Of a stretch of DNA of 13,776 nt, positions 1-13,776 are shown piece by piece. The translations under genes and the position numbers were made by a program. This DNA comes from a bacterium (lineage in GTDB: Bacteria > UBP15 > UBA6099 > DSWB01). The stretch lies in assembly GCA_020061125.1 (NCBI GenBank), contig JAGUYV010000243.1:1-13776 (forward strand), written 5' to 3'. Position 1 is the first letter of the stretch. Every line of letters starts with the position of its first letter. Below the pieces are notes generated by a model that saw only the letters and a list, made by a program, of their open reading frames with translations, was not told where the DNA came from and did not search any database.

Positions 1-622
1 CGTGGCCGGCGGGTTCGCGGCCAACCGCCTGTTCGGCGACAGGCTCAAGCGCGACGAACTGCTGCAGCTCTGCACCGAAGCCGAGGCTGCGGTCAGCGGC
101 GGGTTCTTCGCGGACAACACGGCCGCGGCCCTGTTCGGCGGCGGCACCATCACCCGCAGCAACGAGCCGCTCGATGTGATTTCCATGGGCGGCCTGCCCG
201 GCGTCACTCTGGTCATGGTCACCCCCGACATGGCTCTGCCCACGGCCAAAGCCAGGAAAGCCCTGCCCAAAAAAGTGGACCTTCACAAATTCGTGAGCAA
301 CATGGGAAACACCGCGGCCATCGTGGCCGCGTTCGCCAAAAAGGACGCGGATCTGTTCTGCCGCTCGATCAACGACATCGTGGTGGAGCCGGCGCGCGCG
401 CGGCTCATCCCCGGTTTTTACGATGTCAAGGCCGCGGCTCTGGACGCAGGCGCCCTGGGCTGCTCCATCAGCGGCGCAGGCCCGACCGTGTTCGCGGCCA
501 TTCCGGCCAAAGGGCCGGCCGACAAAGTCGGCCAGGCCATGAAAAAGGCGTTTCTCAAGAACGGCCTCAAGTCCACGGTGCAGCTATGCAGCGTGGACCG
601 CAGAGGCGCGCGCGAGGTGTGA
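1..622 (+). CDS. thrB: Homoserine kinase, C-terminal part (5' end outside window)
   Basis: Homoserine kinase phosphorylates L-homoserine with ATP to O-phosphohomoserine in cytoplasmic threonine synthesis. About 206 residues are visible, against roughly 300 for the whole enzyme (E. coli ThrB has about 309), so about the first third lies before base 1. The frame is already open at base 2, and the GTG there is not a start. The first residues, VAGGFAANRLFG, match the helix just after the GLGSSA ATP-binding loop of GHMP kinases, so that loop is just outside. Seen here are FADNTAAALFGG, where the family usually has a Pro, then EPARARLIPGF, and the third GHMP motif GCSISGAGPTVFA near the C-terminus. 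The last two are characteristic of ThrB rather than other GHMP kinases. The next synthetase-like gene follows after 1 or 46 bases, depending on its start, so co-transcription is likely. The biochemical link to that gene is unclear. Confidence 0.9.
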   Translation, partial: VAGGFAANRLFGDRLKRDELLQLCTEAEAAVSGGFFADNTAAALFGGGTITRSNEPLDVISMGGLPGVTLVMVTPDMALPTAKARKALPKKVDLHKFVSNMGNTAAIVAAFAKKDADLFCRSINDIVVEPARARLIPGFYDVKAAALDAGALGCSISGAGPTVFAAIPAKGPADKVGQAMKKAFLKNGLKSTVQLCSVDRRGAREV

Positions 623-656
623 CATGGAACTGCGCCCGCCCATCAGCCCATTCATC

Positions 657-662
657 AAGGAG
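657..662 (+). promoter_or_regulatory. Ribosome binding site deciding the start of the first GS-like gene
   Basis: AAGGAG ends 6 bases before the ATG at 669, which is ideal spacing for a Shine-Dalgarno site. The upstream in-frame ATG at 624 has only GAGGTG at 614-619, with a 4-base gap, inside the end of thrB. The site therefore favours 669, but use of both starts cannot be excluded. Confidence 0.6.
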
Positions 663-668
663 CCAGGC

Positions 669-2042
669 ATGGAACTCAAGGGAAAACTCGACCTCAAGCA
701 GCTCAAGAAACTTATCGAGGAAGGACTTGTGGACACGGTCATCATGGCCGGCGTGGACCTGCAGGGCCGCCTCTACGGAAAGCGGCTTGTCGCCAAAACT
801 TTCCTCACCCACTTCCAGGGCGGCATCGCCACCTGCGCCTGCAATTTCGGCTGGGACATGGATCTCGTTCTGATCCCGGGCATGAAATTCACGGGCTGGC
901 ACACGGGCTACGGCGACATGCACGCCAAGCCGGATTACAACACCCTGCGCGCCTATCCCTGGATGGAAAAAACCGTGATTGTGCTCTGCGACACCTGCAC
1001 CGAGGAAGGCGATCTCATTGACATCGCCCCGCGCACCATTCTCCGCCGCCAGGTCGAAAAAGCCGAGAAAATGGGCTTCATTCCCTACATGGCATCGGAA
1101 CTCGAATTTCACCTTTACAAGGAAAACTTCGATGCGGCCCGCGCGCGGGACTACCGGGACCTCGAACCCCTGTTCCGCAATTACGGCGATTATTCCATCT
1201 TCCGCACTTCCATGGACGAATGGATCCTGCGGATCTTCCGCAACGGCTTGAGCGACGCGGGCATAGATGTCGAGAGCGTGAAGGGCGAATGGGGCTTCGG
1301 GCAGCTCGAACTGGGCGTAGTGTACCAGGATGCGCTGACCATGGCCGACTGGCACGCGCTCGTGAAGCAGGGCGTCAAGGAAATGGCCGCGCTCAACGGC
1401 CTGGTGGCCACCTTCATGGCCAAGCCCTCGACCAATGACTCCGGCTCGGGCCTGCACATCCACATGAGCCTGTGGGACAAAAAGACGCGCAAGTCCATGT
1501 ACTGGGACAAGAACAAGGACTACAACATGAGCGACACCATGCGCCACAGCCTGGGCGGCATGATGCAGCTCGCGCGCGACTTCCAGGTCTTTTACGCGCC
1601 CTACATCAATTCCTACAAGCGCTATTCCTACCAGTCGTTCGCACCCTACAACATCGCCTGGGGCGGAGACAACCGCACGGTCACATTCCGCGTGTGCGGC
1701 AGCCATAACGCCTGCCGCATCGAAAACCGAATTCCCGGCGCGGACGCCAATCCCTATCTGGCCCTGGGCGCGTGCCTGGGTTCCGCGCTCTACGGTGTGC
1801 AGAACAAGCTCGAACCCGTGGGCGAGTACTGCGCCGCGGACGCTTACGAACTCAAGGACGCCCCCCTGTTCGCCCGCAACCTGCCCGACGCGCTGCGCAA
1901 TTTCGACAACAGCGAAATCGCGCGCGAAATCCTGGGCGACGATGTCGTGGACCATTATGTCAAACTCATGGCCTGGGAATGCGAGCGCTACTTCACGGAT
2001 GTCACCGACTGGGAGCGCAAGAAATACTTTGAAATGGCGTGA
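669..2042 (+). CDS. Glutamine synthetase-family ligase, PuuA-like (probable gamma-glutamyl-amine synthetase)
   Basis: The chosen start gives 457 residues (472 from ATG 624), close to E. coli PuuA. The family activates glutamate with ATP as gamma-glutamyl phosphate and transfers it to ammonia or an amine, in the cytoplasm. Visible family features are the metal-binding pair in SELEF (E144, E146), the second metal-site pair in GEWGFGQLE, H263 in GSGLHIHMSL, the arginines of NRTVTFRV, and ENRIPGADANPYL. The N-terminal GRLYGKRL and the C-terminal tail of about 40 residues after ILGDD resemble PuuA more than GlnA. The loop that carries Glu327 in E. coli GlnA reads SFAPY, with F324 at the Glu position. 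From memory PuuA has Tyr there. Loss of this ammonium-site glutamate argues for an amine substrate, which is inferred. The SDR gene follows after 90 bases. Alternatives are gamma-glutamylmethylamide synthetase or a FluG-like ligase. The family is secure; the substrate is not. Confidence 0.87.
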   Translation: MELKGKLDLKQLKKLIEEGLVDTVIMAGVDLQGRLYGKRLVAKTFLTHFQGGIATCACNFGWDMDLVLIPGMKFTGWHTGYGDMHAKPDYNTLRAYPWMEKTVIVLCDTCTEEGDLIDIAPRTILRRQVEKAEKMGFIPYMASELEFHLYKENFDAARARDYRDLEPLFRNYGDYSIFRTSMDEWILRIFRNGLSDAGIDVESVKGEWGFGQLELGVVYQDALTMADWHALVKQGVKEMAALNGLVATFMAKPSTNDSGSGLHIHMSLWDKKTRKSMYWDKNKDYNMSDTMRHSLGGMMQLARDFQVFYAPYINSYKRYSYQSFAPYNIAWGGDNRTVTFRVCGSHNACRIENRIPGADANPYLALGACLGSALYGVQNKLEPVGEYCAADAYELKDAPLFARNLPDALRNFDNSEIAREILGDDVVDHYVKLMAWECERYFTDVTDWERKKYFEMA

Positions 2043-2088
2043 GCGCGGCGCACCGTCCGGCCCGCTCATGATGACGGCATGACACGCC

Positions 2089-2105
2089 CGGCCGCCCGGC
2101 GGCCG
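2089..2105 (+). other. GC-only hairpin in the gap before the SDR gene
   Basis: CGGCCGC and GCGGCCG form a perfect 7-bp stem around a 3-base CCG loop, 27 bases before the SDR start codon. No T-run follows, so it is not a standard intrinsic terminator. It could stabilise or segment the operon mRNA or affect translation of the SDR. In GC-rich DNA it could also be chance. Confidence 0.3.
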
Positions 2106-2132
2106 CATCAACAGCAACGGAGACAACAGGAA

Positions 2133-2903
2133 ATGGCAAACCGCTTGAAAGGCAAAGTCGCGCTCATCACGGGCGCGGGCATGGGGCAGGGCAGGGCCGC
2201 GGCCCTGCTGTTCGCAAAGGAAGGCGCCCGAATCGTCGTGGGCGACATCAACGCGGACGCGGGCAACGAAACCGTGGCGCTCATCAAACAGCAGACAAAA
2301 AGCGACGCCGTGTTTTCAAAATGCGATGTCAGCAAAGAACTGGACTGCCGCAGGCTCGTCAAAGCCGGCCTCAACGGGTTCGGCAAGCTCGACATCCTGT
2401 ACAACAACGCCGGCGTGCTCTGGAAGAGCATTGACAAGTCCGTGATCGAAAACACCGAGGAAAACTGGGACAAGGTCATTGGCATCAACCTCAAGGGGCC
2501 GAACTTCATCTGCAAGCACGGCATCCCTGCGCTGCTCAAGAACGGGGGCGGGTCCATCATCAACATCGGCTCCATCTCGGCCCTGGCCGGCTCAACCATT
2601 CCACAGGACGCCTACAACTGCGCCAAGGGCGCGCTCATCATCCTCACCAAGTCCATCGCCATCCAGTTCGCCAAACAGGGAATACGCTGCAACATCATCC
2701 ACCCCGGAATGATTGACACCCCCATGCAGCATGTGTACATGAAGAACCCGCAGTGGACCAAGGCGGTCGAGGACGACATCCCCATGGGCCGCTTCGGCAA
2801 ACCCGAGGAAATCGCCCGCGTGGCCCTGTTCCTGGCCTCGGACGAATCCTCGTACATGACCGGCGCCGAACTCATCGTGGACGGCGGCTTCTGCGCCAAA
2901 TAG
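2133..2903 (+). CDS. Short-chain dehydrogenase/reductase (SDR), classical, probably NAD-dependent
   Basis: This 256-residue protein has the normal length of a classical SDR. It should oxidise a hydroxyl group or reduce a carbonyl with a nicotinamide cofactor, in the cytoplasm. The Rossmann motif TGAGMGQG is at residues 13-20. Asp38 at the end of the second strand (VVGDIN) favours NAD(H) over NADP(H). YNNAG is at 90-94. The catalytic set is N119 (GINLKG), S147 (INIGS), Y161 and K165 (YNCAK). NIIHPGMIDTPM and the terminal VDGG are typical of the family. I chose ATG 2133 because MANRLKGKVALITG is the usual SDR N-terminus and CGGAG lies 10 bases upstream; the in-frame ATG at 2079 adds an unlikely Arg/Gln-rich tail. 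The gene lies between two synthetase-like genes, with gaps of 90 and 50 bases. In that context it may oxidise an alcohol group on a glutamylated intermediate or a product of one. That role is inferred, and substrate cannot be read from an SDR sequence. Confidence 0.92.
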   Translation: MANRLKGKVALITGAGMGQGRAAALLFAKEGARIVVGDINADAGNETVALIKQQTKSDAVFSKCDVSKELDCRRLVKAGLNGFGKLDILYNNAGVLWKSIDKSVIENTEENWDKVIGINLKGPNFICKHGIPALLKNGGGSIINIGSISALAGSTIPQDAYNCAKGALIILTKSIAIQFAKQGIRCNIIHPGMIDTPMQHVYMKNPQWTKAVEDDIPMGRFGKPEEIARVALFLASDESSYMTGAELIVDGGFCAK

Positions 2904-2937
2904 CCGCGCGTTCGCCCCGGCTGATCAACTCGCTTGA

Positions 2938-2942
2938 AAGGA
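2938..2942 (+). promoter_or_regulatory. Ribosome binding site for the GTG-started second GS-like gene
   Basis: AAGGA, within GAAAGGAATTC, lies 11 bases before the GTG at 2954. The spacing is on the long side. The frame is open further upstream, back into the SDR gene, but this is the only Shine-Dalgarno-like sequence in the gap. The family N-terminus also begins just after this GTG, so 2954 is the best start. Confidence 0.5.
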
Positions 2943-2953
2943 ATTCTTTTGCC

Positions 2954-4387
2954 GTGTTCAAGAACCCTGATGAAATGCTGAAATACATCCGCGACAACAA
3001 GGTCGAGTTCGTGGATTTGAAAGTCATAGACCTTCCCGGCCGGTGGCGGCACATGACCTTCACCGCCGCTCACCTCGACGAGAAGATCTTCGAGAAAGGC
3101 TACGGGTTGAGCCTCTCGCCGTATCCCGGATTCCGAGTCATCAACAACAGCGACATGACTGCGCGCCCGGACCCTTGCACGGCGTTCGTGAACCCGTTCT
3201 TCGAGCGCAAAACCCTGACGGCCATCTCGGACACCTACTACACCGACGGCACGCCCTACGAGCGCAACCCGCGCGCCATCGTGCGCCGCGCCGAGGAGCG
3301 CATCAAGGCCGTCACGGGACTGGACGCCCGTTCCCTGTGGCTGCCCGAGATGGAGTTCTACATCCTCAAGGCCGCGCGCTACGGCAGCGCCGTGAACAAG
3401 GGCTACTTCGAGCTGTTCAGCGACACGGCGTCCTGGAACGACCTCGACCCGGACTTCCCCGAGCACAAGGTCAAGATGCCTGACACGGGCGTGGGGCAGA
3501 TAGACGCGCCCCGCGATGTGCACGCCAATCTGCGCTCACTCATGGTCAGCCGCATCGAGGATGCGGGCTATTCCGTGAAGTATCACCACCACGAACTGGG
3601 CGGCGCGGGCCAGTGCGAAATCGAAACCTATTTCGACACCATGCTGCGCGCGGCCGACTCCGTGATGGTCATGAAATACATGATCCACAGCACCGCGCGC
3701 GAACAGGGCCTGTGCGCCACTTTCATGCCCAAGCCCATGAACGGCGCGCCCGGCAGCGGTCTGCACTTCCACCAGTATCTGGAGAAGGACGGCAAGTCCC
3801 TGTTCTACGGAGGCCCGGACCAGTACGCCTGCCTCAACGACATGGCGCGGCAGTATCTGGGCGGTCTGCTCAAGCACTCGCCCGCGCTCATGGGCCTGTG
3901 CTGCCCCACGCTCAACTCGTACCGCCGCTTCGGCGTGGGCCTGGCCGCGCCCATGAACCTGTTCTTCGGCGACAGCAACCGCAGTTCGGCCCTGCGCATT
4001 CCCGGTTACTCCAAGAACGAAACGGAACACCGCGTGGAATACCGACTGCCCGACGCCACCTGCAACCCGTATCTGGCCATGGCCGCGCAGCTCATGGCCG
4101 GACTGCACGGCATCGAGTCCGCCGTCAACCCCACGGCCGAGGGCTTCGGTCCCTTCGATTTCAACAACTACACCTTGAGCGCCGAAGAGCGCGCTAAGAT
4201 CAAGTCAGGCCCCACTTCCCTGGAGAGCGCCCTGGCCGCGCTGCGCGAGGATAACGCGTTCCTCACCGCGGGCGATGTGTTCCCTGCGGATCTGGTTCCC
4301 ACATGGATCGATCTCAAGATGCAGGAGATGGACGAGCAGCGCCGCCGCCCGCATCCCTACGAGTTCGAGCTGTATTTTGATTTCTGA
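2954..4387 (+). CDS. Type I glutamine synthetase-like ligase with altered ammonium site
   Basis: From GTG 2954 the protein has 477 residues, close to E. coli GlnA (469), and follows it along its whole length from EFVDLKVIDLPG to the final EFELYFDF. Residues for metal, ATP and glutamate are kept: E132 and E134 (PEMEF), E214 and E222 (HHHELGGAGQCE), H271 (GSGLHFH), R343 and R348 (NRSSALRIP), E362 and R364 (HRVEYRLPD). The ammonium pocket is not kept. Counting back from INNSDM, S53 occupies the Asp50 position, and A331 (GLAAP) occupies the Glu327 position. Both are needed for ammonium binding and deprotonation in true GS. Y406 aligns without gaps with Tyr397, the adenylylation site. I infer a gamma-glutamyl ligase for a non-ammonia acceptor, possibly one acting on a different amine from the PuuA-like neighbour. 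A GS-fold enzyme with another reaction is the alternative. The AOR gene follows after 42 bases. Confidence 0.88.
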   Translation: MFKNPDEMLKYIRDNKVEFVDLKVIDLPGRWRHMTFTAAHLDEKIFEKGYGLSLSPYPGFRVINNSDMTARPDPCTAFVNPFFERKTLTAISDTYYTDGTPYERNPRAIVRRAEERIKAVTGLDARSLWLPEMEFYILKAARYGSAVNKGYFELFSDTASWNDLDPDFPEHKVKMPDTGVGQIDAPRDVHANLRSLMVSRIEDAGYSVKYHHHELGGAGQCEIETYFDTMLRAADSVMVMKYMIHSTAREQGLCATFMPKPMNGAPGSGLHFHQYLEKDGKSLFYGGPDQYACLNDMARQYLGGLLKHSPALMGLCCPTLNSYRRFGVGLAAPMNLFFGDSNRSSALRIPGYSKNETEHRVEYRLPDATCNPYLAMAAQLMAGLHGIESAVNPTAEGFGPFDFNNYTLSAEERAKIKSGPTSLESALAALREDNAFLTAGDVFPADLVPTWIDLKMQEMDEQRRRPHPYEFELYFDF

Positions 4388-4400
4388 TTTCATCACCCCC

Positions 4401-4413
4401 GCGCGCCGCGCGC
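4401..4413 (+). other. Short GC hairpin before the AOR ribosome binding site
   Basis: GCGCG and CGCGC pair as a 5-bp stem around a CCG loop. The hairpin sits just before GGAGG (4417-4421), which is 8 bases upstream of the AOR start codon. No T-run follows. It has the same CCG loop as the hairpin before the SDR gene, which may be coincidence in GC-rich DNA. It might modulate translation of the AOR. Confidence 0.22.
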
Positions 4414-4429
4414 CACGGAGGCTCATGTC

Positions 4430-6316
4430 ATGGCCGAACTCAAAGCAGTGAACGGAAAAATCCTGCTCGTCAATCTCACCTCGGACGAGATCACCGTAGA
4501 CGAGCCGGACGCCGCGTTCTACCGCAAATATCTGGGCGGCGGCGCCGTGGGCGCGTACTACATCCTCAAGACCATGCCGGCCAAGGCCGACCCGCTCGGG
4601 CCGGACAATGTGATCACCTTCTGCCCCGGCATCCTCACCGGGGGCGCGTTCTCGGGCGCGAGCCGGTTCTCGGTCAACGCCAAGTCGCCCCTTACCGGGT
4701 GCATCGGCGATTCACAGTGCGGCGGCAATTTCGGCCCCGCGCTCAAATGGGCCGGGTTCGACGCCGTGGTGGTCACGGGCAAGGCGCCCGCCCCGGTTTA
4801 CCTGTGGATACACGACGGCGAAGCGGAGATCCGCGACGCCTCGGCCGTGTGGGGCAAGTTCACCGGGGACACGCGCAAGGCCATCGCCGCGGAGCTGGGA
4901 GACGACAAGATCCGCATGGCGTGCATCGGCCCAGCGGGCGAGCGCATGGTGAGCTTCGCCAATGTGAGCGGAGACGGCAGCGACTACGCGGGCCGCACGG
5001 GCATGGGCGCGGTCATGGGTTCCAAAAACCTCAAGGCCGTGGTGGCCAAGGGAGACAAGAAACCAGAGTATGCGGATCCGGACACCGTGAAGGAAATCGC
5101 GCGCCGCGGTGCGGAGAATTTCAAAACCTCGGGCTTTCCGCAGATGCTCAAGGAATTCGGCACCTCCGCGGGCACGGAGTTCTTGAGCGGACTCGGGTGC
5201 TTCCCCACGCGCAACTGCTCACGCGGCTCCTTCGAACAGGTCAAGGGCCTGTCCGGGGAAACCATGAAGAAGACTATCGGCCACGGCAGCCAGGCGTGCT
5301 TTGGGTGCGTGGTGCGGTGCCGCCAGATCGCAAGCGCGAGCGAACCTTACGAGATCGATCCCGAGTACGGCGCGCCCGAATACGAAACCATCGGCATGCT
5401 GGGCGGCAACCTGGAGATTGGCGATATCGCGGCTGTGGCGCGCGCCAATATGCTGTGCAACGCCTACGGCATGGACACCATCAACACGGGCGCGGCCATC
5501 GCGTGGCTCATCGAGTGCCAAGAGAACGGCCTCGCGCCCGCGGCAAAGACAAAGGGCCTCGATTTGCGGTTCGGCAACCCGGATGTGATGCTTCAGCTCG
5601 TGGAAATGATCGGTGAGCGGCGCGGCATCGGCGATCTGCTCGCCAGGGGCCTCGAGGCGTGCGTGGCAGCGTTTGGCTCGCGCACCGCGGAATTCGCCGT
5701 GCATGTCAAGAACAACGCCATTCCCGCGCATTTGCCCCAGGTGAAGAAATCCCAGGCCCTGGCGTATGCGGTGAACCCGTTCGGCGCGGACCACATGTCC
5801 ACGGAGCATGACGGCATCATCATGAAGATTGGCGCGGCCGCGCGCGGCCTGGGGCTGGACGCGGAGCGCGGCATCGCGGACCTGGACCGCGAAAAAGTCC
5901 GCATGGTGGTGTATACGCAGTATTATTACAGCCTGCTGGACGCCTTGAGTCTGTGCATGTTCTGCTGGGGGCCGGGCGCGCTATTCAGCTACGACGACCT
6001 GGTGCAGATAATCAACGCGGCCACGGGCTGGGACATGACCTTCTGGGAGCTGATGAAAGCGGGCGAAAGGCGCGTGAACATGATGCGCGCGTTCAATGCG
6101 CGTGAAGGCATAGACTCGCAGTACGACCGCCTGCCCGAGCGCGTGTTCAAACCCATGCCCGGCCCGGGCGCGGGCCAGGGCGCACATGTGCCCCGCGAGG
6201 CGTTCCAGGAGGCTGTTATCACCTATTACCGCATGATGAATTGGGACGATTACACCGGCACCCCGGGGCAGGAAAAGCTGTGCGAGCTTGGCCTGGACTG
6301 GATTTCCGCAGTGTAA
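4430..6316 (+). CDS. aor: Aldehyde:ferredoxin oxidoreductase, tungsten-pterin family
   Basis: At 628 residues this is close to the archaeal AOR (about 605). AORs oxidise aldehydes to carboxylic acids, or the reverse, with ferredoxin, using a tungsten bis-pyranopterin and one [4Fe-4S] cluster, in the cytoplasm. The N-terminal domain has VNLT, YLGGGAVGAY and PLTGCIGDSQCGGNFG, then the pterin-binding AGRTGMGAVMGSKNLKAV. The cluster cysteines are C290, C293 and C297 (CFGCVVRC), with the fourth at C509 (DALSLC). PEYETIG and YGMDT are family motifs, and H455 in GADHM matches the conserved active-site histidine region. The start at 4430 has GGAGG 8 bases upstream; an ATG at 4425 is out of frame. It is the last gene of the run of five. 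I infer that it removes aldehydes made from substrates handled by the synthetase-like and SDR proteins. No MoaD-like partner follows. Family assignment is secure, tungsten use is inferred, and the aldehyde is unknown. Confidence 0.94.
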   Translation: MAELKAVNGKILLVNLTSDEITVDEPDAAFYRKYLGGGAVGAYYILKTMPAKADPLGPDNVITFCPGILTGGAFSGASRFSVNAKSPLTGCIGDSQCGGNFGPALKWAGFDAVVVTGKAPAPVYLWIHDGEAEIRDASAVWGKFTGDTRKAIAAELGDDKIRMACIGPAGERMVSFANVSGDGSDYAGRTGMGAVMGSKNLKAVVAKGDKKPEYADPDTVKEIARRGAENFKTSGFPQMLKEFGTSAGTEFLSGLGCFPTRNCSRGSFEQVKGLSGETMKKTIGHGSQACFGCVVRCRQIASASEPYEIDPEYGAPEYETIGMLGGNLEIGDIAAVARANMLCNAYGMDTINTGAAIAWLIECQENGLAPAAKTKGLDLRFGNPDVMLQLVEMIGERRGIGDLLARGLEACVAAFGSRTAEFAVHVKNNAIPAHLPQVKKSQALAYAVNPFGADHMSTEHDGIIMKIGAAARGLGLDAERGIADLDREKVRMVVYTQYYYSLLDALSLCMFCWGPGALFSYDDLVQIINAATGWDMTFWELMKAGERRVNMMRAFNAREGIDSQYDRLPERVFKPMPGPGAGQGAHVPREAFQEAVITYYRMMNWDDYTGTPGQEKLCELGLDWISAV

Positions 6317-6332
6317 AAAACAGAAAACAGGG

Positions 6333-6338
6333 TATAAT
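6333..6338 (+). promoter_or_regulatory. Possible -10 box (TATAAT) for the small membrane protein gene
   Basis: A perfect TATAAT stands in AT-rich sequence just after the AOR stop codon, in otherwise GC-rich DNA. There is no good -35; GTGTAA at 6311-6316 has 16-base spacing but poor similarity. If used, transcription would begin near 6345, only a few bases before the ATG at 6348, so the mRNA would be almost leaderless. This fits the lack of a well-spaced Shine-Dalgarno (AGGG at 6329-6332 is 15 bases from the ATG). Confidence 0.35.
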
Positions 6339-6347
6339 TCAGATCAA

Positions 6348-7016
6348 ATGGATTTTACGCTGGTGCGCGATACAACTTCTGGAATGTACGATGTGCTGCG
6401 GCGCGCGGCCCGTGCCGTGGGCCTGGAACTGACCATGGAGGCGCACGCTTACCTCAACCAGGACGACGACGAGGATCAGATCCTGGACTTCTACTCCGAC
6501 AAAATCGCCGAATACGGATCGGAAAAGCTCTATTACGAAGCGCTGGGCGCCAAGAATTACGACGATCTCGAAGAGAAGATGGCCACGGCCCTGAACGCGA
6601 TCTATTTCCGCCGCCTGCAGCTTGAGAAGCTGCGCAAGTCCACATCGTTTCTGCGCGAGCGGGGCCGCGCCGGGCGCACCATCCTGGAGACCGTGATCAC
6701 GCGCGCGGCCTATGAAGCGCTGGAGGCGCGCACCGGCGAGTTCGCCGTGCCCACCCGCGGCCTCAATGTCGCTTTCATGATCTTCCTTTTTCTCGCCTAC
6801 TACGCATCCACGCAGAAAAACGCCATGGCTGTTTTCCTGTTTCTGACCGTCGCCGTGTTCACCGTTGCGCTGCGCGTGGCGCTGTATCTTGTCGAGCGGC
6901 GCGAATACCAGAAAACCCTGTCCGGCAGCGCCCGCCTCACGGGCGCGGAATCGGCCCGGCTGCGCCAGGCCGTGGCCGGCATGCTCGGCCGCTTCTATCC
7001 CGGCTTCGAATGGTGA
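6348..7016 (+). CDS. Hypothetical two-TM membrane protein
   Basis: I do not recognise this 222-residue protein. The first 135 residues or so look soluble. They include an acidic stretch (NQDDDEDQILDFY), then a charged helical part that could form a coiled coil around residues 75-110. Two hydrophobic segments follow, LNVAFMIFLFLAYY (about 139-156) and AMAVFLFLTVAVF (about 162-183), separated by a very short polar turn. The C-terminal 40 residues are basic. This suggests an inner-membrane helical hairpin with both long ends on the same side, probably cytoplasmic. ATG 6348 is preferred because an in-frame ATG at 6288 lies inside the AOR gene and would give an unrelated leader. The gene follows the AOR after 31 bases and could be read from the operon or from its own TATAAT. 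The next gene is convergent. No enzyme motif is visible. It is likely a real gene, because its reading frame gives a coherent membrane topology. Confidence 0.72.
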   Translation: MDFTLVRDTTSGMYDVLRRAARAVGLELTMEAHAYLNQDDDEDQILDFYSDKIAEYGSEKLYYEALGAKNYDDLEEKMATALNAIYFRRLQLEKLRKSTSFLRERGRAGRTILETVITRAAYEALEARTGEFAVPTRGLNVAFMIFLFLAYYASTQKNAMAVFLFLTVAVFTVALRVALYLVERREYQKTLSGSARLTGAESARLRQAVAGMLGRFYPGFEW

Positions 7017-7101
7017 CAGGTTCCTCCGGCTCGATTTTTTCCATGAAACAATCAATAACCTCCCAATAAAACGAGCATGTTTTTGCTGCCGGTGGCTCTG
7101 T
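7017..7101. other. Convergent intergenic gap without a clear terminator
   Basis: This 85-base gap separates the plus-strand membrane protein gene from the minus-strand giant gene. It is richer in A and T than its surroundings. A TTTTTT run (7035-7040) follows a GC-rich stretch, but I find no good stem before it. AGCA (7074-7077) and TGCT (7084-7087) form only a 4-bp stem, which on the minus strand is followed by a T-rich stretch. Neither makes a convincing intrinsic terminator. Confidence 0.4.
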
Positions 7102-10100
7102 TCAGGGAATGATTTTCACGGATATGGTTCCCATGAATCTACCGACGGTGAATGTGACTTCTTCGTTGCCCGTTGTCGAGCCTGCCTGGAAGAACCCGTT
7201 TGTGTTGATGGTTCCAAGGCCGTTTTTGACTTTTGCGGATTCGGCGCTGATGTCGAAGATGGCCCCTGTCGTGAAGTGGGCTTGGATTTCAAATGTGCGA
7301 GAACTGTTGCGCTTGATTTCTGAAGTGTGGGGGAACACTTTGATGTTCGAGATGTCTTTGATGCCCACGCGCACGGGCACGGACTCCGTGTCCATGCCGC
7401 CATAGGGGTCGCGCACGGTCAGCGTGAGCGTGGCCCAGTACGCGTCCCGCGGCGCGGTCCAGTTGGTGGATGCGGATGTTGTGGCGGAAAACGGGCTATG
7501 GCCGCCGCCGCTCCACTCGTAAGTGAGGGGATCGCCGTCCGGATCCGAAGCGGTTGCCGACAGGGTTACTGCTTCGTAGAAAGAGACATCCACTGACGAC
7601 GAGGTAAGCGACGATATCACGGGGCTGGCGTTGAGCCGTTTGTTGAGCGCGAATTCGCTTGTGTTGCCGTTTGTGTCTGTGACCGTTGCGGTGACATAGC
7701 GGCCGCCGGTAATGGTTAAATTCGTGAACGACCATGCGCCGGCCGCGGTTGTGGTTGCGGTGGCGACGAATGCGTAGGCTTCGCCCGCCAGGGTGGCGTC
7801 CTGGCCCACGGAGGATGCGGTGTCGTCCACGCGGAACAGCTCCACGGTGCAGCCCGCGCACGCGGGCGCCGTGGTTCCAGAGATATCGTATGCGCCCGCG
7901 CCCAGAGCCGTGATCGTGACGATGGACGGCGCGGCGCGCGACGCGTTGCCCCCGGATTCCAGCGCAATGCCCTTGCCCGCGTTGTCGAATGTCACATTCC
8001 TTGAAACCGTGTTGCCGGTTGTGCCGCTGTCTTTAATCAGCACACCGTGCGAGTCGTTGAACACAATCCGGTTTGGCTGGCCCGTGAAGGCGCCGCCCAC
8101 GGCGTTGTTTTTGGCCGAGGTCTCGATTTTTACCCCCGTGCCGTTTTGCAGGTTCGACACCTTGTCCCCGTTTTTGTCGCTGCCGATGTAATTGCCGTAT
8201 ATTTTGTTTGCGTCCGAGCCTGCGCCCTGGATGAGGATGCCAATGGAGTTGCCCGAGACGAGGTTGCGGCGAGAGGAATCCGTTCCGCCCACAGTGTTCA
8301 GATTCGATCCGCTGGAAATGACCACGCCCACGAAGTTGGCCACTTTTCCGGTTCCGAGCGGATTCGTGCCGATGTAGTTTCCGATCACCATGTTGTTGGA
8401 TGTGGTCGTGTGAAGGTTGACGCCCACGGTGTTGCCGGACACCACATTCCGGTCCGCAGCGGTTGTGCCGCCGATGGTGTTGGCGTACGCGCTGCTGGTG
8501 ATCAGGATGCCCGTGCGGTTGCCCAGGCCGGCGGCGCCTGAAGAGTTCGTGCCGATGTAATTGCCCGCGATCAGGTTGTTTGTTGCGGTCGAGCCGGAGA
8601 TGCCTATGCCGTGCCCGGCGGTCATGTCCCCGCATTTGACGATGGTCAGGCCCCGGATTTCATTGTTGCTGGAAAGAATCGAGAAGCAATACCAAGGATT
8701 GCCGCCGCCGCTCACCGTGACCTGGCCGCCGGAAGTGTTCCTGATGGTCGTGGCGTTGTCCGTGAGCGTGGGCAGGCCGCTGGCCAGGGTGATGGTCTTG
8801 CCGGACATGGATGTGTGGAAGGTGATATCCGACGGCGCGTTGTCCGCGTTGGCTTCGGCCATGCACTGGCGCAGTGTGGCGTAGCCCGCGTCCGCATTGG
8901 ATGACACGACAAAGCCTGGGCACTCGGTACGAGGCAATTTCTTGTTGGCCGCGAACTCCGTGGTGTTGCCGCCGCTGTCCGTGATCGTGGCCGAGATGTA
9001 ATTTGCGTTTGCGGATGGGGTGAGGCCGGTGGCGCTCCACGCGCCCGCGGCGTCTGTGGTGACAGTGGCGAGCAGGTCGTAGCCCTCGCCCGAGCCGGCC
9101 GGGTCCGCGGACACGCCCGCCCCCGTGTCGTCGGCCTGGAAGATCTCCACGGTGCATGCGCCGCATGTGCTCGCGCCCGTGGCGTCGTAAGCCGAACCGT
9201 TCTTGATTACCGTGTCTATGGACAGGCTGTAGTCGTGTCCGGTCACGATGCCCTTGCCGCCGTTTTCATAGATGCTGTTGGCGCGGATGGTGAGGCCCGC
9301 GGGCGAACCGGTGACCTCGACGCCCGCGCCACCATTGTTCGCAATCACATTGGCGTCCCCGGCCGCGCCCCCGATGGTTGTTGCGGTGACCGTGGCGGTG
9401 AAGGTGATGCCGGTCTGCAGGTTCCCTGCCGGGGTCATGTCCTGCTTCACGCCGATGAGGTTGTTGCGGATTGACATGCCGGATGTGCTGATGGCGTAAA
9501 TGCCGCTCTTTTCGTTTGCGGAAATGATGTTCCGCTCGGTTGCCGCGCCGCCCACCACGGCGTTGTAGCCTTCGTAAATGGCGATGCCGTATTCGGTGTT
9601 GGAACGCGTCTGCAGGCCGTCTCTGGAAAGCCCGATGATGTTGCCGCGGATCACCGTGTCCGGGGCCGTGGACAGGTTCACGGCCGTGCCGTAGTTGCCG
9701 GATATCACATTGCCATAATCCTGTGTCCCGCCCACGACCGTGCCGCGCGCGCCCGAGAAGATCTGCACGCCGCCGTTGTTGGGCAGGGCGGGTGATCCGA
9801 TCAATCCCAGGCCGATGATGTTGCCCTGCACCGCGTTGTTGTCCGCGCCCGGGCCGGTGATGCGAACCGCGTATCCCGGCGTGTTGCCGGAGATGATGTT
9901 GCCTTGGCTCGCGGACGCGGATCCGCCGATGGTGTTTGCGTGCGCGCCGCCGGTGATCAGGATGCCGCCGGTCCCGTTTTTGAGCGCCGCCATGCCCGTG
10001 GACTTGACGCCGATCTTGTTGTTTTGAACGAGTGTTCCGGTTGTGTCGGTCCCGTCAATGGTGACGCCGGTTTTGCTGTTGCCCGCGATCACGCTGTTGA

Positions 10101-13100
10101 TGATTTTGTTGTTTGCCCCGGCCACATAAATGCCGGAGCTGTTGCCGATGGCCGTGGAGTCAATGAAATTCGTGCCCACGCGGCAGGAGTCAATGGTCAC
10201 GCCATCAGCCTGGATGTCTATGGCGTGCCGCCCGTCCCTGCGGTATTGAACCACGGCCAGGCCCTTGAGAGACGAATTGTCCGCGGCGATTTCAAAGCCG
10301 CTGCACAGGGCGCAGTCCGATCCGTCCACAATGATGTTCCGGCCCGAGGCGTCAATGATCACCGGGCCGCCGTAGTCTTCAAACGGGATCGGGTTCACGG
10401 GTTTGATGACGGCGTTGCTGATGGAGAACGAAATAGTTTGCGTGCCCGCGGATTCGTTGGCGGCCATGACGCAGTCGTACAGGCTGCCGTCGCCGTCCGC
10501 GGCGCTCGTGGTTACGGTCCAGCCGGGGCATTTGTATGAAGTGCCCGGCTCGAACGCCAGGAGCGCAGAGCTGGCGTCGTTCGAGGTGCCGAACACCAGC
10601 AGATTTCCCGAGACCGCAGGGGAGGACACAATGTTTGCGCCCGCGTCGTAACGCCACACCTCGCGGCCGTTGTCGTTGGGGTCCAGGGCGTACAGCACGC
10701 CCCGGTTCACGGACCATGCGCCATCCGTTACATACACATAATCATTGAAGACCACGGGACTGGAGAACGCCAGGCTGTTGTCCAGGCTGGTCTGCCAGCG
10801 CAGGGCGCCGGTCTGGATGTCGTATGCGGCAAGGGTGCCGTCGCCTGTGCCGAGTATATACATCCCGTTGTATAGGGCGCCGTTGGAGTCCACGAACGCA
10901 TTGGGGTTGTACGCGCTCCACACAATGGCGCCCGTGTATTTGTTGAGGCAGTAGGCGCGGTCGTCGTCCCATGTGGAAGTGCATACATAGTCACCGCTGA
11001 CCGTGACGCCGCTTCCCGCGATCTGGCAGGTTGCGGTTGTCAGCTCCCTGGACCAATACAACTCGCCGGTGAAAGCATCCAGAGCGTAAACCGTGCAGTT
11101 GTTCGATGTCGCGTAAACCACGCCGTTGACCACGGCCGCGGGCGAATCGCCGAAAGAATAGGTTGACCCGAATCCCGGCGAGTAAGACCATTTCACGGCT
11201 TTTGTGGAGGGGTTCAGGGCGTAGAAGGTTCCGGTTTCAGAGCCGAAATACAGGGTGTCGTTGGCGATGACCGGGGACGAGCCGCGGATTCTTCCTCCTG
11301 TATCGAAGATCCAGTTGAGCGTGCCGGAGAGGCGGTTCAGGGAATACATTTTCCCGGATTCCGCGGCGAAGAACACAGAGTTGTTCCACACGGCCGGGGC
11401 GTTGTCCCTGAAGCTGTCGCCGCCGGTGTCGTATTGCCAGGCCAGGGAGCCGTCGGCTTTGTTCACGGCGTACGCCCGGCCGCTGTTTTCGCCCACATAG
11501 ATGTGCGTTTCAAAAATCGCGGGCGAGGTGTAGATGTTGGAAGAGAAATCCGTGGTTTTGGACCATTTAAGCGTCAGGGGCCATTTGAATGTTTGCGCGC
11601 TTTGTCCCGAGTTGGCGGTGTTGCATGAAAACATGGGCCAATCCTCGCCGCAGGGTTGCGGAAGGGCGATTGTCTGAACGGTGAGGGTTCCCGCGGCCGA
11701 GCCGGATTTGCCGAGAAGGTCCGAGGCGGTCACGGGAATGTTTTTGTCTCCGGCGGCGACGCTCTCGGGTACGGAGAACCTGTCGCTGCCATACACGCCG
11801 TCTCCGGCCGCGCCGTCCGCGTGCGCCCCGTCGTCGTACAGGGGCAGCGCGACCGGGCCGCCCGCGTCCGTGAGATTCACCGTCACGGCGCTTATGTAGC
11901 TCATGCCGTTCGCATAGGTCACGGTCGCGGTCACGCGGGTTTTCTGCATGCCGTTGGCTATGACCGTGTCCGGGGTGAATTGCACATCGGAAATCACGGG
12001 CGCGATGCACAGGTCGTACCAGGGTCCGAATTCCGAGGTGTTGCCGTTGGTGTCGTGCCCGAGTGTGGATATGGCCATGCACTCGGAAAAGCAGATGCCG
12101 GAGTAAGTGAATGTGGCGGCGGCCACGGCCGAGGAGGACATGCCGTGGTATTCGTACCCCTCGCCGTTGCCGCTCGGGTCGGGCTGCGCGGCCGCCGAGG
12201 GCTTGCTTGCGTAGTAAATGTGCGCGTAAGTGTTGGGGGCCTTGGTTCCGGAGATGTTGTAGCAGTTGCCGCCCGCGCTGGTGATCTGGGTGATCACCGG
12301 GAAATCCGTGTAATCGTTGGGGCCGGGCGGGGTTGAGCTGTTGGGCGTGACGCCGTCGTTGTTCAGGTCCACGGCCAGCCCCTGGTTCTGATAGAAACTG
12401 TTTTTGAAAAACTTATTGCGCACGGACCCGCTGTCGCGCGCCTCAATGCCGTTGCGCTTGTTGTGCGCGATGTCGTTGGCGCCGTCCAGGTTGTGGTCCT
12501 TGGCGCCGATCCGGTTGTTGCTGGCGCTGCCGATGATGAGAATGCCGCCCGCAGTGTTGCCCGCGGCGTTGCCGTTTTTGTCAACTCCGATTTTGTTGTA
12601 CTGGATGAGATTGTTCTGCGCGTCCGCGCCGTTGAGGATGACCCCGTAGGTGGAGCTGTTGGCGATGATGTTTCCCGAGCCGTTGTCCAGGTGGTCCACG
12701 CCCACATAGGTGTATGGGACGCTCTTCAAATACACGCCTGCGTTTTTGTTCCCTGCCGGGGTCGCGCCATCCGCTCCCACGCCGATGTAGTTGTTGAGAA
12801 TGATATTGACCGTTGACGCCGCTCCCTCGACATGAACGCCGCTGCCTCCGTTGCCCGAGAGCACATTGCGGAACCCATTGTTGTGGTTGCCGACCAGCGT
12901 GGATTTGGCGCTGTTGATGATCCGCACCCCATCTTTTTTGTTGGCGAGAATGGTGTTGCCGGAGTTGTCCACCCCGATATAGTTGCCGTATATTTTCGTA
13001 TTGTCACCGTCGCTGATGAAGATGCCGTAGCCGTTGTTGCCGCTGATCAGGTTGCCCATGGACACGCCCGTGTCGCCGCCGATGACAGTGTCGTCCGAGC

Positions 13101-13776
13101 CGTCGCCTTCGATGTAAATGCCCGAGCCGTAGTTTTCCAGCAGGCTTATGCCATCGGATTTTGCGCCGATGATGGATTTGACGATGGTGGTGTTTTTTGC
13201 GCCGTTGATGTAGATGCCGTGGCCCGCGGCCGCGTGGTAATTGCCCGAGATCACGGACTTGGCGCCCGTTTCGCTGGTGATGATGTTTCTTGCCGCCTGG
13301 TTTTCGATTATCACGCCGTTGGCGTTGTCGTAGCCCGTTTTGTCCAGGTAATCCGTGCCGATGCGGCAGCCGATGATCTGGTTGTCCGTGGACGCGATGC
13401 CCGTGATGCGGATGCCCGAGGCGCCGAATGGTGCCCCGGCGTCCGAGCGGAAGCGGATAATGGAGATGTCTTTGATGGTGTTGTTCGCGGACTGGATCCG
13501 GATGCCGTCCGAGGGAGAGAGGAAATGGCCGGAGATCACGATTTTGCGGCCGCTGCCGTCAATGGTGACGCCGGCCGGGTCCGTGAGCGGAGGTAGGGCT
13601 GTCAGCAAGTCTATGCGCGCGTCGGTGATGCCGAACTGGATGGTGTCCGCGCCGCCGTTGGTGTTGGCGTAGGAGATGCACCAGCGCAGGGAATTGATGC
13701 CCGAATCGCCATTGTGCGTGACCATGCACACACCCGCCGCGCCCATGCCCGAGCCGCCGCCGGTTCCGGTTCCGCC
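7102..13776 (-). CDS. Giant secreted-type mosaic protein: three beta-helix modules, PQQ-type propeller, Ig-like domains (N-terminus outside window)
   Basis: The frame is open to the window edge, giving at least 2224 residues. Residues are counted here from the in-frame ATG at 13746, which is probably not the start, since GGTGTGGGSG is encoded before it. The order is: beta-helix 1 (about 7-480), Ig-like (about 481-580), a second Ig-like domain (about 581-690), PQQ-type beta-propeller (about 699-1072), beta-helix 2 (1073-1505), Ig-like (to 1608), beta-helix 3 (1609-1936), Ig-like (to 2038), PKD-like (2039-2126, with SDPDGDPLTYEW) and Big2-like (2127-2214). Helix turns show the repeated pattern NYIG, GV.I, IGG and N.ISGN. 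Cysteine pairs at the head of each helix (C7/C23, C1073/C1092, C1609/C1628) suggest disulfides and export. The chain ends at VKIIP with no LPXTG, PEP-CTERM or obvious sorting domain. The signal peptide would be outside. A cell-surface or released adhesin or carbohydrate-binding role is possible; no catalytic residues are evident. The function is unknown. Confidence 0.88.
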   Translation of the reverse strand, partial: GGTGTGGGSGMGAAGVCMVTHNGDSGINSLRWCISYANTNGGADTIQFGITDARIDLLTALPPLTDPAGVTIDGSGRKIVISGHFLSPSDGIRIQSANNTIKDISIIRFRSDAGAPFGASGIRITGIASTDNQIIGCRIGTDYLDKTGYDNANGVIIENQAARNIITSETGAKSVISGNYHAAAGHGIYINGAKNTTIVKSIIGAKSDGISLLENYGSGIYIEGDGSDDTVIGGDTGVSMGNLISGNNGYGIFISDGDNTKIYGNYIGVDNSGNTILANKKDGVRIINSAKSTLVGNHNNGFRNVLSGNGGSGVHVEGAASTVNIILNNYIGVGADGATPAGNKNAGVYLKSVPYTYVGVDHLDNGSGNIIANSSTYGVILNGADAQNNLIQYNKIGVDKNGNAAGNTAGGILIIGSASNNRIGAKDHNLDGANDIAHNKRNGIEARDSGSVRNKFFKNSFYQNQGLAVDLNNDGVTPNSSTPPGPNDYTDFPVITQITSAGGNCYNISGTKAPNTYAHIYYASKPSAAAQPDPSGNGEGYEYHGMSSSAVAAATFTYSGICFSECMAISTLGHDTNGNTSEFGPWYDLCIAPVISDVQFTPDTVIANGMQKTRVTATVTYANGMSYISAVTVNLTDAGGPVALPLYDDGAHADGAAGDGVYGSDRFSVPESVAAGDKNIPVTASDLLGKSGSAAGTLTVQTIALPQPCGEDWPMFSCNTANSGQSAQTFKWPLTLKWSKTTDFSSNIYTSPAIFETHIYVGENSGRAYAVNKADGSLAWQYDTGGDSFRDNAPAVWNNSVFFAAESGKMYSLNRLSGTLNWIFDTGGRIRGSSPVIANDTLYFGSETGTFYALNPSTKAVKWSYSPGFGSTYSFGDSPAAVVNGVVYATSNNCTVYALDAFTGELYWSRELTTATCQIAGSGVTVSGDYVCTSTWDDDRAYCLNKYTGAIVWSAYNPNAFVDSNGALYNGMYILGTGDGTLAAYDIQTGALRWQTSLDNSLAFSSPVVFNDYVYVTDGAWSVNRGVLYALDPNDNGREVWRYDAGANIVSSPAVSGNLLVFGTSNDASSALLAFEPGTSYKCPGWTVTTSAADGDGSLYDCVMAANESAGTQTISFSISNAVIKPVNPIPFEDYGGPVIIDASGRNIIVDGSDCALCSGFEIAADNSSLKGLAVVQYRRDGRHAIDIQADGVTIDSCRVGTNFIDSTAIGNSSGIYVAGANNKIINSVIAGNSKTGVTIDGTDTTGTLVQNNKIGVKSTGMAALKNGTGGILITGGAHANTIGGSASASQGNIISGNTPGYAVRITGPGADNNAVQGNIIGLGLIGSPALPNNGGVQIFSGARGTVVGGTQDYGNVISGNYGTAVNLSTAPDTVIRGNIIGLSRDGLQTRSNTEYGIAIYEGYNAVVGGAATERNIISANEKSGIYAISTSGMSIRNNLIGVKQDMTPAGNLQTGITFTATVTATTIGGAAGDANVIANNGGAGVEVTGSPAGLTIRANSIYENGGKGIVTGHDYSLSIDTVIKNGSAYDATGASTCGACTVEIFQADDTGAGVSADPAGSGEGYDLLATVTTDAAGAWSATGLTPSANANYISATITDSGGNTTEFAANKKLPRTECPGFVVSSNADAGYATLRQCMAEANADNAPSDITFHTSMSGKTITLASGLPTLTDNATTIRNTSGGQVTVSGGGNPWYCFSILSSNNEIRGLTIVKCGDMTAGHGIGISGSTATNNLIAGNYIGTNSSGAAGLGNRTGILITSSAYANTIGGTTAADRNVVSGNTVGVNLHTTTSNNMVIGNYIGTNPLGTGKVANFVGVVISSGSNLNTVGGTDSSRRNLVSGNSIGILIQGAGSDANKIYGNYIGSDKNGDKVSNLQNGTGVKIETSAKNNAVGGAFTGQPNRIVFNDSHGVLIKDSGTTGNTVSRNVTFDNAGKGIALESGGNASRAAPSIVTITALGAGAYDISGTTAPACAGCTVELFRVDDTASSVGQDATLAGEAYAFVATATTTAAGAWSFTNLTITGGRYVTATVTDTNGNTSEFALNKRLNASPVISSLTSSSVDVSFYEAVTLSATASDPDGDPLTYEWSGGGHSPFSATTSASTNWTAPRDAYWATLTLTVRDPYGGMDTESVPVRVGIKDISNIKVFPHTSEIKRNSSRTFEIQAHFTTGAIFDISAESAKVKNGLGTINTNGFFQAGSTTGNEEVTFTVGRFMGTISVKIIP
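7633..8922 (-). repeat. Protein-level module 3: beta-helix plus Ig-like domain
   Basis: The module opens CPGFVV with cysteines 1609 and 1628 (TLRQC), followed by regular turns GNYIGTNSSG, NTIGG and NVVSGN that recur three to four times. It closes with an Ig-like domain containing CAGCTVELF, AGAWSFTNL and GNTSEFALNK. The near match of opening and closing motifs with module 2 points to an internal duplication. Confidence 0.78.
8923..10530 (-). repeat. Protein-level module 2: beta-helix plus Ig-like domain
   Basis: The module opens CPGWTV with cysteines 1073 and 1092 (GSLYDC), runs through beta-helix turns such as NNKIGVKSTG, NTIGG and GNIISGN, and closes with an Ig-like domain. That domain contains CGACTVEIF, GSGEGYD, AGAWSATGL and GNTTEFAANK. 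It is closer to module 3 than to module 1. Confidence 0.78.
10531..11652 (-). other. PQQ-type beta-propeller domain within the giant protein
   Basis: Residues 699-1072 hold seven copies of the pattern 'Tyr/Ala-x-Leu/Val/Tyr-Asn/Asp, x3-5, Gly, x3, Trp', for example YAVNKADGSLAWQY, YSLNRLSGTLNWIF, YALDAFTGELYWS and AAYDIQTGALRWQ. The first follows a partial blade, LTLKWSK. Between copies are the usual SSPVI and VYFG-type strands. This is a PQQ-repeat (pyrrolo-quinoline-quinone-like) propeller of seven or eight blades. Such domains often serve as scaffolds, and I see no evidence for PQQ binding or dehydrogenase activity. Confidence 0.82.
12007..13776 (-). repeat. Protein-level module 1: beta-helix plus Ig-like GNTSEF domain
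   Basis: This encodes the first of three related modules. It opens with C7 and C23 around a SLRWC motif, continues with beta-helix turns that recur about every 65-70 residues (YIGVD, then GVRI, then NVLSGN), and ends with an Ig-like domain closing in GNTSEFG and C580. Its Ig-like part is the most divergent of the three copies: it lacks the CxxCTVE motif and has NCYNISG instead. Confidence 0.75.

Follow-up and report, generated by a model that had tools for sequence, protein, structure and literature searches.

Gamma-glutamylation pathways for ethanolamine have been described in Streptomyces coelicolor and in marine Phaeobacter. According to the S. coelicolor study (PMC6529630), the ethanolamine cluster comprises genes for a short-chain dehydrogenase (SDR), an aldehyde dehydrogenase (ALDH), GlnA4, a transporter, and a glutamine amidotransferase, and in the pathway GlnA4 works together with a dehydrogenase, an ALDH, and a step of the amidohydrolase type. 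The candidate phylum UBP15 locus considered here resembles this cluster in having a glutamine synthetase (GS)-like protein with an E327→F change (E. coli GlnA numbering), an adjacent SDR, a predicted aldehyde-oxidizing step, and a glutamine amidotransferase gene in relatives; it differs in that S. coelicolor has an aldehyde dehydrogenase rather than an aldehyde ferredoxin oxidoreductase (AOR), and the figure legend of that study names neither thrB nor a second ligase of the type described below (GS2). Ethanolamine glutamylation has been demonstrated in vitro for S. coelicolor GlnA4; for UBP15 it is predicted from the genes. In Phaeobacter, the pathway (ETAGA/GAADDH/GETADH/GGAH) combines a GS, an alcohol dehydrogenase, an ALDH, and an amidohydrolase (PMC10132767); likeness to the proposed UBP15 pathway lies in the ethanolamine gamma-glutamylase, the successive oxidation of alcohol and aldehyde, and the hydrolysis of gamma-glutamylglycine, and unlike UBP15 a TRAP transporter is present (PMC10132767). 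A Ruegeria locus, similar to that of Phaeobacter, differs from UBP15 in its iron-containing alcohol dehydrogenase and N-formylglutamate-type amidohydrolase. The Puu pathway of E. coli shares the logic of gamma-glutamylation, aldehyde oxidation, and hydrolysis, but acts on a diamine and employs the oxygen-dependent oxidase PuuB, the aldehyde dehydrogenase PuuC, and the hydrolase PuuD. For the aldehyde-oxidizing step, the UBP15 protein is a full-length member of the AOR family by sequence, with cluster cysteines aligned to those of the Pyrococcus furiosus enzyme (1aor); we know of no glutamylation pathway in which P. furiosus AOR takes part.

The window is an entire contig of 13,776 nt (G000:C264:1-13776) from a genome taken as a member of UBP15 (G000), and was compared with six UBP15 relatives (G001–G006). 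As the sequence-only reading had stated, five tightly spaced genes lie on the same strand (positions 2-6316), with intergenic gaps of 1, 90, 50, and 42 nt; families were assigned by Pfam and NCBIfam scans:

2..622, + strand: thrB-type homoserine kinase (GHMP kinase), 3' part; the contig begins inside the gene
624..2042, + strand: GS1, GlnA4-type gamma-glutamyl-amine ligase, probable gamma-glutamylethanolamide synthetase (Gln-synt_C; residues, tree)
2133..2903, + strand: SDR, probable NAD(P)-dependent gamma-glutamyl-amino-alcohol dehydrogenase (adh_short_C2, PF13561)
2954..4387, + strand: GS2, divergent GlnA-derived ligase (GTG start; Gln-synt_N and Gln-synt_C)
4430..6316, + strand: AOR, aldehyde ferredoxin oxidoreductase family (AFOR_N, PF02730; AFOR_C, PF01314)

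GS1 has an alternative start at 669. The thrB fragment reaches the NF002288 cut-off (194.4 bits, cut-off 194) despite its missing 5' part; the cut-off of TIGR00191 is exceeded by five full UBP15 thrB copies, the cut copy of the window falling below it, and above-cut-off thrB matches occur in genomes of the phylum only at the GS1-SDR-GS2 cluster. A promoter scan of window positions 1-7200 returned none, where chance alone would give 1.2, and terminator-like sites were no commoner than by chance, so transcription units are not readable from the sequence; the cluster genes are presumably co-transcribed. Downstream, a small 222-aa gene (6348-7016) has no Pfam or NCBIfam match and a TATAAT just upstream, and the minus strand (7102-13746) encodes a giant 2214-aa protein that matches right-handed beta-helix, NosD, and PQQ-propeller models and whose frame is still open where the contig ends.

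Both GS-like ligases had been called non-canonical, and residue comparison bears this out. In GS1 the metal, Glu, and ATP positions checked against E. coli GlnA are kept, except for N264, which varies, and the ammonium site is altered (S53→L, a gap at Y179, E327→F); an acidic residue is still aligned in the D50 column, which counts against the pathway preferred below. In the tree, GS1 is grouped with GS proteins adjoining an SDR and an ethanolamine permease or ALDH, and the subclade nearest the window comprises Nitrospiraceae, Hydrogenedentota, and Brevibacillus. Among solved structures, the chains closest to GS1 are 11zs and 5dm3, the latter a Chromohalobacter salexigens protein. The residue at the E327 position of S. 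coelicolor GlnA4 is likewise Phe (F331), and a predicted glutamylation-based ethanolamine pathway is mentioned for C. salexigens (both in PMC6529630). Residues and tree placement put GS1 nearest to the group of GlnA4-type gamma-glutamylethanolamide synthetases/ethanolamine gamma-glutamylases. AlphaFold models of GS1 and GS2, built from seven-row alignments, were too poor for fold comparison (mean pLDDT 42.8 and 40.3, respectively). The window genome encodes two other GS proteins with D50, S53, Y179, and E327 intact, and canonical GlnA genes are present outside the cluster.

The SDR carries the motifs TGAG and NNAG, together with S149 and Y161xxxK165. Across 80 named GS1 loci, which are non-independent because related Rokubacteria, Chloroflexi, and Brevibacillus supply many of them, an SDR is found within 3 kb and on the same strand as GS1 at 65 and an ALDH at 29, and gene density within 3 kb relative to farther out is raised 10.7-fold for SDR and ~49-fold for ALDH. 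A tree of 35 SDRs selected from these GS1 loci places 24 of the 25 GS1-adjacent copies in one clade (99/97 support), a phylogenetic linkage of the SDR to GS1 that spans many phyla and includes the window, Lewinella, and Thermomicrobium copies. The window SDR is thus related to those of permease-linked loci: at the Lewinella locus, the ethanolamine permease TIGR00908 (448.8 bits, cut-off 381.75), GS1, SDR, ALDH, and class-I GATase stand in a row, and annotated Thermomicrobium and Allomeiothermus plasmids carry the arrangements GS-SDR-eat and GS-SDR-ALDH. The one copy outside the clade is that of Brevibacillus, whose SDR is more distant and whose GS1 locus has a different, non-TIGR00908 amino-acid permease. 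In Rokubacteria, a PhnW-like 2-aminoethylphosphonate aminotransferase adjoins GS1-SDR (L114:12208-13329; TIGR03301 382 bits, cut-off 360.8). The substrates of GS1-SDR loci may therefore vary, since some have this aminotransferase instead.

GS1 matches at 61-64% identity fall in a UBP15 genome (UBA6099) as well as in three other MAGs, and a search across the phylum yields seven genomes; the window genome is assigned to UBP15 on these grounds. GS1, SDR, and GS2 are linked in 7/7 genomes examined, with the SDR between the two ligases on a single contig in all six relatives, and thrB stands before GS1 on every contig long enough to show it (the G006 contig begins inside GS1). Because of this linkage, and because SDRs are concentrated near GS1, the neighborhood is not due to chance. 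The order GS-GS-SDR-AOR that had been put forward for a conservation search is in fact thrB-GS1-SDR-GS2-AOR; the GS1/SDR/GS2 core is constant, and AOR adjacency is confined to three of the seven genomes (G000, G001, G005), from three different families, where it directly follows GS2. In the other four (genus g3: G002, G003, G004, G006), the AOR ortholog lies away from the cluster. An Eco57I-type restriction-modification gene is inserted between SDR and GS2 in G002-G004 (L071:9990-13106), for which there is no room in G006. The thrB and GS1 genes of G001 (L069:5887-8258) have an in-frame TAG apiece, at positions where relatives have K and N/R; these may represent TAG read-through, pseudogenes, or assembly error.

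In four of the relatives (G002-G005), the gene next upstream of thrB encodes a class-I GATase (PF00117), and G001 has an ortholog (47%) on a different contig. No close ortholog was found in the 79%-complete window genome, and the window contig begins inside thrB; given the position of the gene in relatives, the amidase of this genome is probably just off the contig, and the release step, which the earlier reading placed elsewhere, would then be linked to the cluster. No ethanolamine permease (TIGR00908) scores over cut-off in the UBP15 genomes, none of this type adjoins GS1 in the subclade nearest the window, and EutB was found in no UBP15 genome. The conserved ethanolamine permease is reported absent from S. 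coelicolor too (PMC6529630).

The best match of the window AOR is 1aor, to the cluster cysteines of which C290, C293, C297, and C509 are aligned, and both AFOR_N and AFOR_C are present; from its family, it would be expected to contain tungsten. Orthologs occur in all seven UBP15 genomes (56-64% identity; detached g3 copies 56-57%), and UBP15 genomes have several AOR paralogs. The AOR tree unites the window copy with the two other GS2-adjacent copies and that of G003 in a clade of 100/100 support, separate from the paralogs; for the copies of G002, G004, and G006, comparison was by identity only. The ALDH (PF00171) of GlnA4-type pathways is missing from the cluster, which has the AOR instead. 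The sequence-only reading knew of no pathway with exactly this gene set. The combination of GS, SDR, ALDH, and amidotransferase is described (PMC6529630); a version with AOR is not apparent in the titles and abstracts of papers that pair AOR with ethanolamine or with gamma-glutamyl/GS (article bodies may hold one). Among the seven UBP15 genomes, COX1 (heme-copper oxidase) matches are found in G000 only (C406, C1), and may reflect real respiration or contamination. An anaerobic reading of G000 is unsafe in the presence of COX1, and the proposal that SDR and AOR replace oxygen-dependent steps is correspondingly weak for this genome.

In GS2, all UBP15 copies examined have D50→S, S53→P, Y179→G, and E327→A, so that 4/4 tested ammonium-site residues are replaced, and the metal, Glu, and ATP positions checked are kept, again except for the variable N264. 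With bit scores of 926-1043 in the seven UBP15 genomes vs. ≤566.5 in the other genomes of a 386-genome sample, GS2 appears, within this sample, to be an offshoot of GlnA confined to UBP15. GS2 would be a second ligase with a remodeled acceptor site. The idea of GS2 as the hydrolase, running backwards and recovering ATP, was dropped because general thermodynamic considerations make it unlikely.

We consider it fairly probable that the cluster directs the gamma-glutamylation and oxidation of a primary amino alcohol, for which ethanolamine is the best candidate, with AOR in the slot of ALDH. By analogy with the S. coelicolor and Phaeobacter pathways, GS1 would attach glutamate through its gamma-carboxyl to the amine at the expense of ATP; the SDR, using NAD(P)+, would convert the free hydroxyl into an aldehyde; AOR would oxidize the aldehyde to the acid (gamma-glutamylglycine in the case of ethanolamine) and pass the electrons to ferredoxin, replacing an NAD(P) aldehyde dehydrogenase; and the class-I amidotransferase-like amidase, adjacent in relatives, would free glutamate and the acid. 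Against this reading count the lack of an over-cut-off TIGR00908 permease in UBP15 and of one of this type beside GS1 in the nearest subclade, the PhnW-like neighbors at some GS1-SDR loci, the detached AOR of the g3 genomes, the acidic D50 column of GS1, the TAG codons of G001, and the failure to find a GATase ortholog in the window genome. The previously suggested sequence of glutamylation, two oxidations, and hydrolysis thus fits the gene set, whereas the plain amine assumed as substrate gives way to a likely primary amino alcohol because the SDR oxidizes an alcohol. The route composed of GS, SDR, ALDH, and amidotransferase is known already, and the cluster would be a variant with AOR and an extra ligase.

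Other readings differ in substrate or in the genes taking part. The chemistry could be the same with another hydroxyamine or a phosphonate-linked amine in place of ethanolamine, as the PhnW-like neighbor in Rokubacteria, the divergent permease in Brevibacillus, and the lack of an over-cut-off permease in UBP15 would allow; this is unlikely, yet has a real minor chance, the SDRs of the TIGR00908-type permease loci (Lewinella, Thermomicrobium) sharing the clade of the window SDR. Puu and isopropylamine pathways, named earlier for comparison, are not the closest known routes; in a pathway of their kind, a plain amine or diamine would be glutamylated with the SDR replacing an amine oxidase. GS1 is distantly similar to gamma-glutamylputrescine synthetase, and in the tree PuuA falls on the same side as GS1, but the GGputSyn score is 197.4 bits against a cut-off of 650, and the PuuA branch is very long (2.7). 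Furthermore, no amine oxidase domain is found among the window genes (Pfam), there is no PuuB-like match near GS1 in the 80 loci, and SDRs act on hydroxyls, all of which makes a Puu-type pathway quite improbable.

The AOR might be a mere neighbor serving other aldehydes, with GS1 and SDR relying on a distant NAD(P) aldehyde dehydrogenase. Its detachment in the four g3 genomes and the several paralogs are in keeping with this, but orthologs persist in every genome, adjacency recurs in three families, and ALDH occupies the corresponding slot at other loci; we regard a bystander role as improbable. It is highly improbable that GS2 works as a glutamine synthetase using ammonia and that the block belongs to the ordinary metabolism of nitrogen or amino acids, tied to thrB: GS2 passes the glutamine synthetase equivalog model TIGR00653 by ~2 bits (431.6 vs. 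429.15), but the 18 closest GlnA hits retain D50, S53, Y179, and E327, and seven other UBP15 GS genes examined retain D50, S53, and E327 (one with H at Y179), residues that are replaced in every UBP15 GS2 examined. Residues, scores, and context led us to reject both the Puu-type and the housekeeping-GS reading.

A broader proposal is that UBP15 combines amino-alcohol glutamylation with a tungsten AOR that draws low-potential electrons from the gamma-glutamyl aldehyde and delivers them to ferredoxin, and with a GS2 that has a new acceptor, masked by its annotation as glutamine synthetase; this we advance tentatively, at somewhat under even chances. If true, it would carry a warning that TIGR00653, the standard glutamine synthetase model, passes a protein without an ammonium site, and it would mean that in the amino-alcohol catabolism of UBP15 a tungsten enzyme linked to ferredoxin oxidizes the aldehyde, in place of an NAD(P) aldehyde dehydrogenase, with recovery of low-potential electrons.
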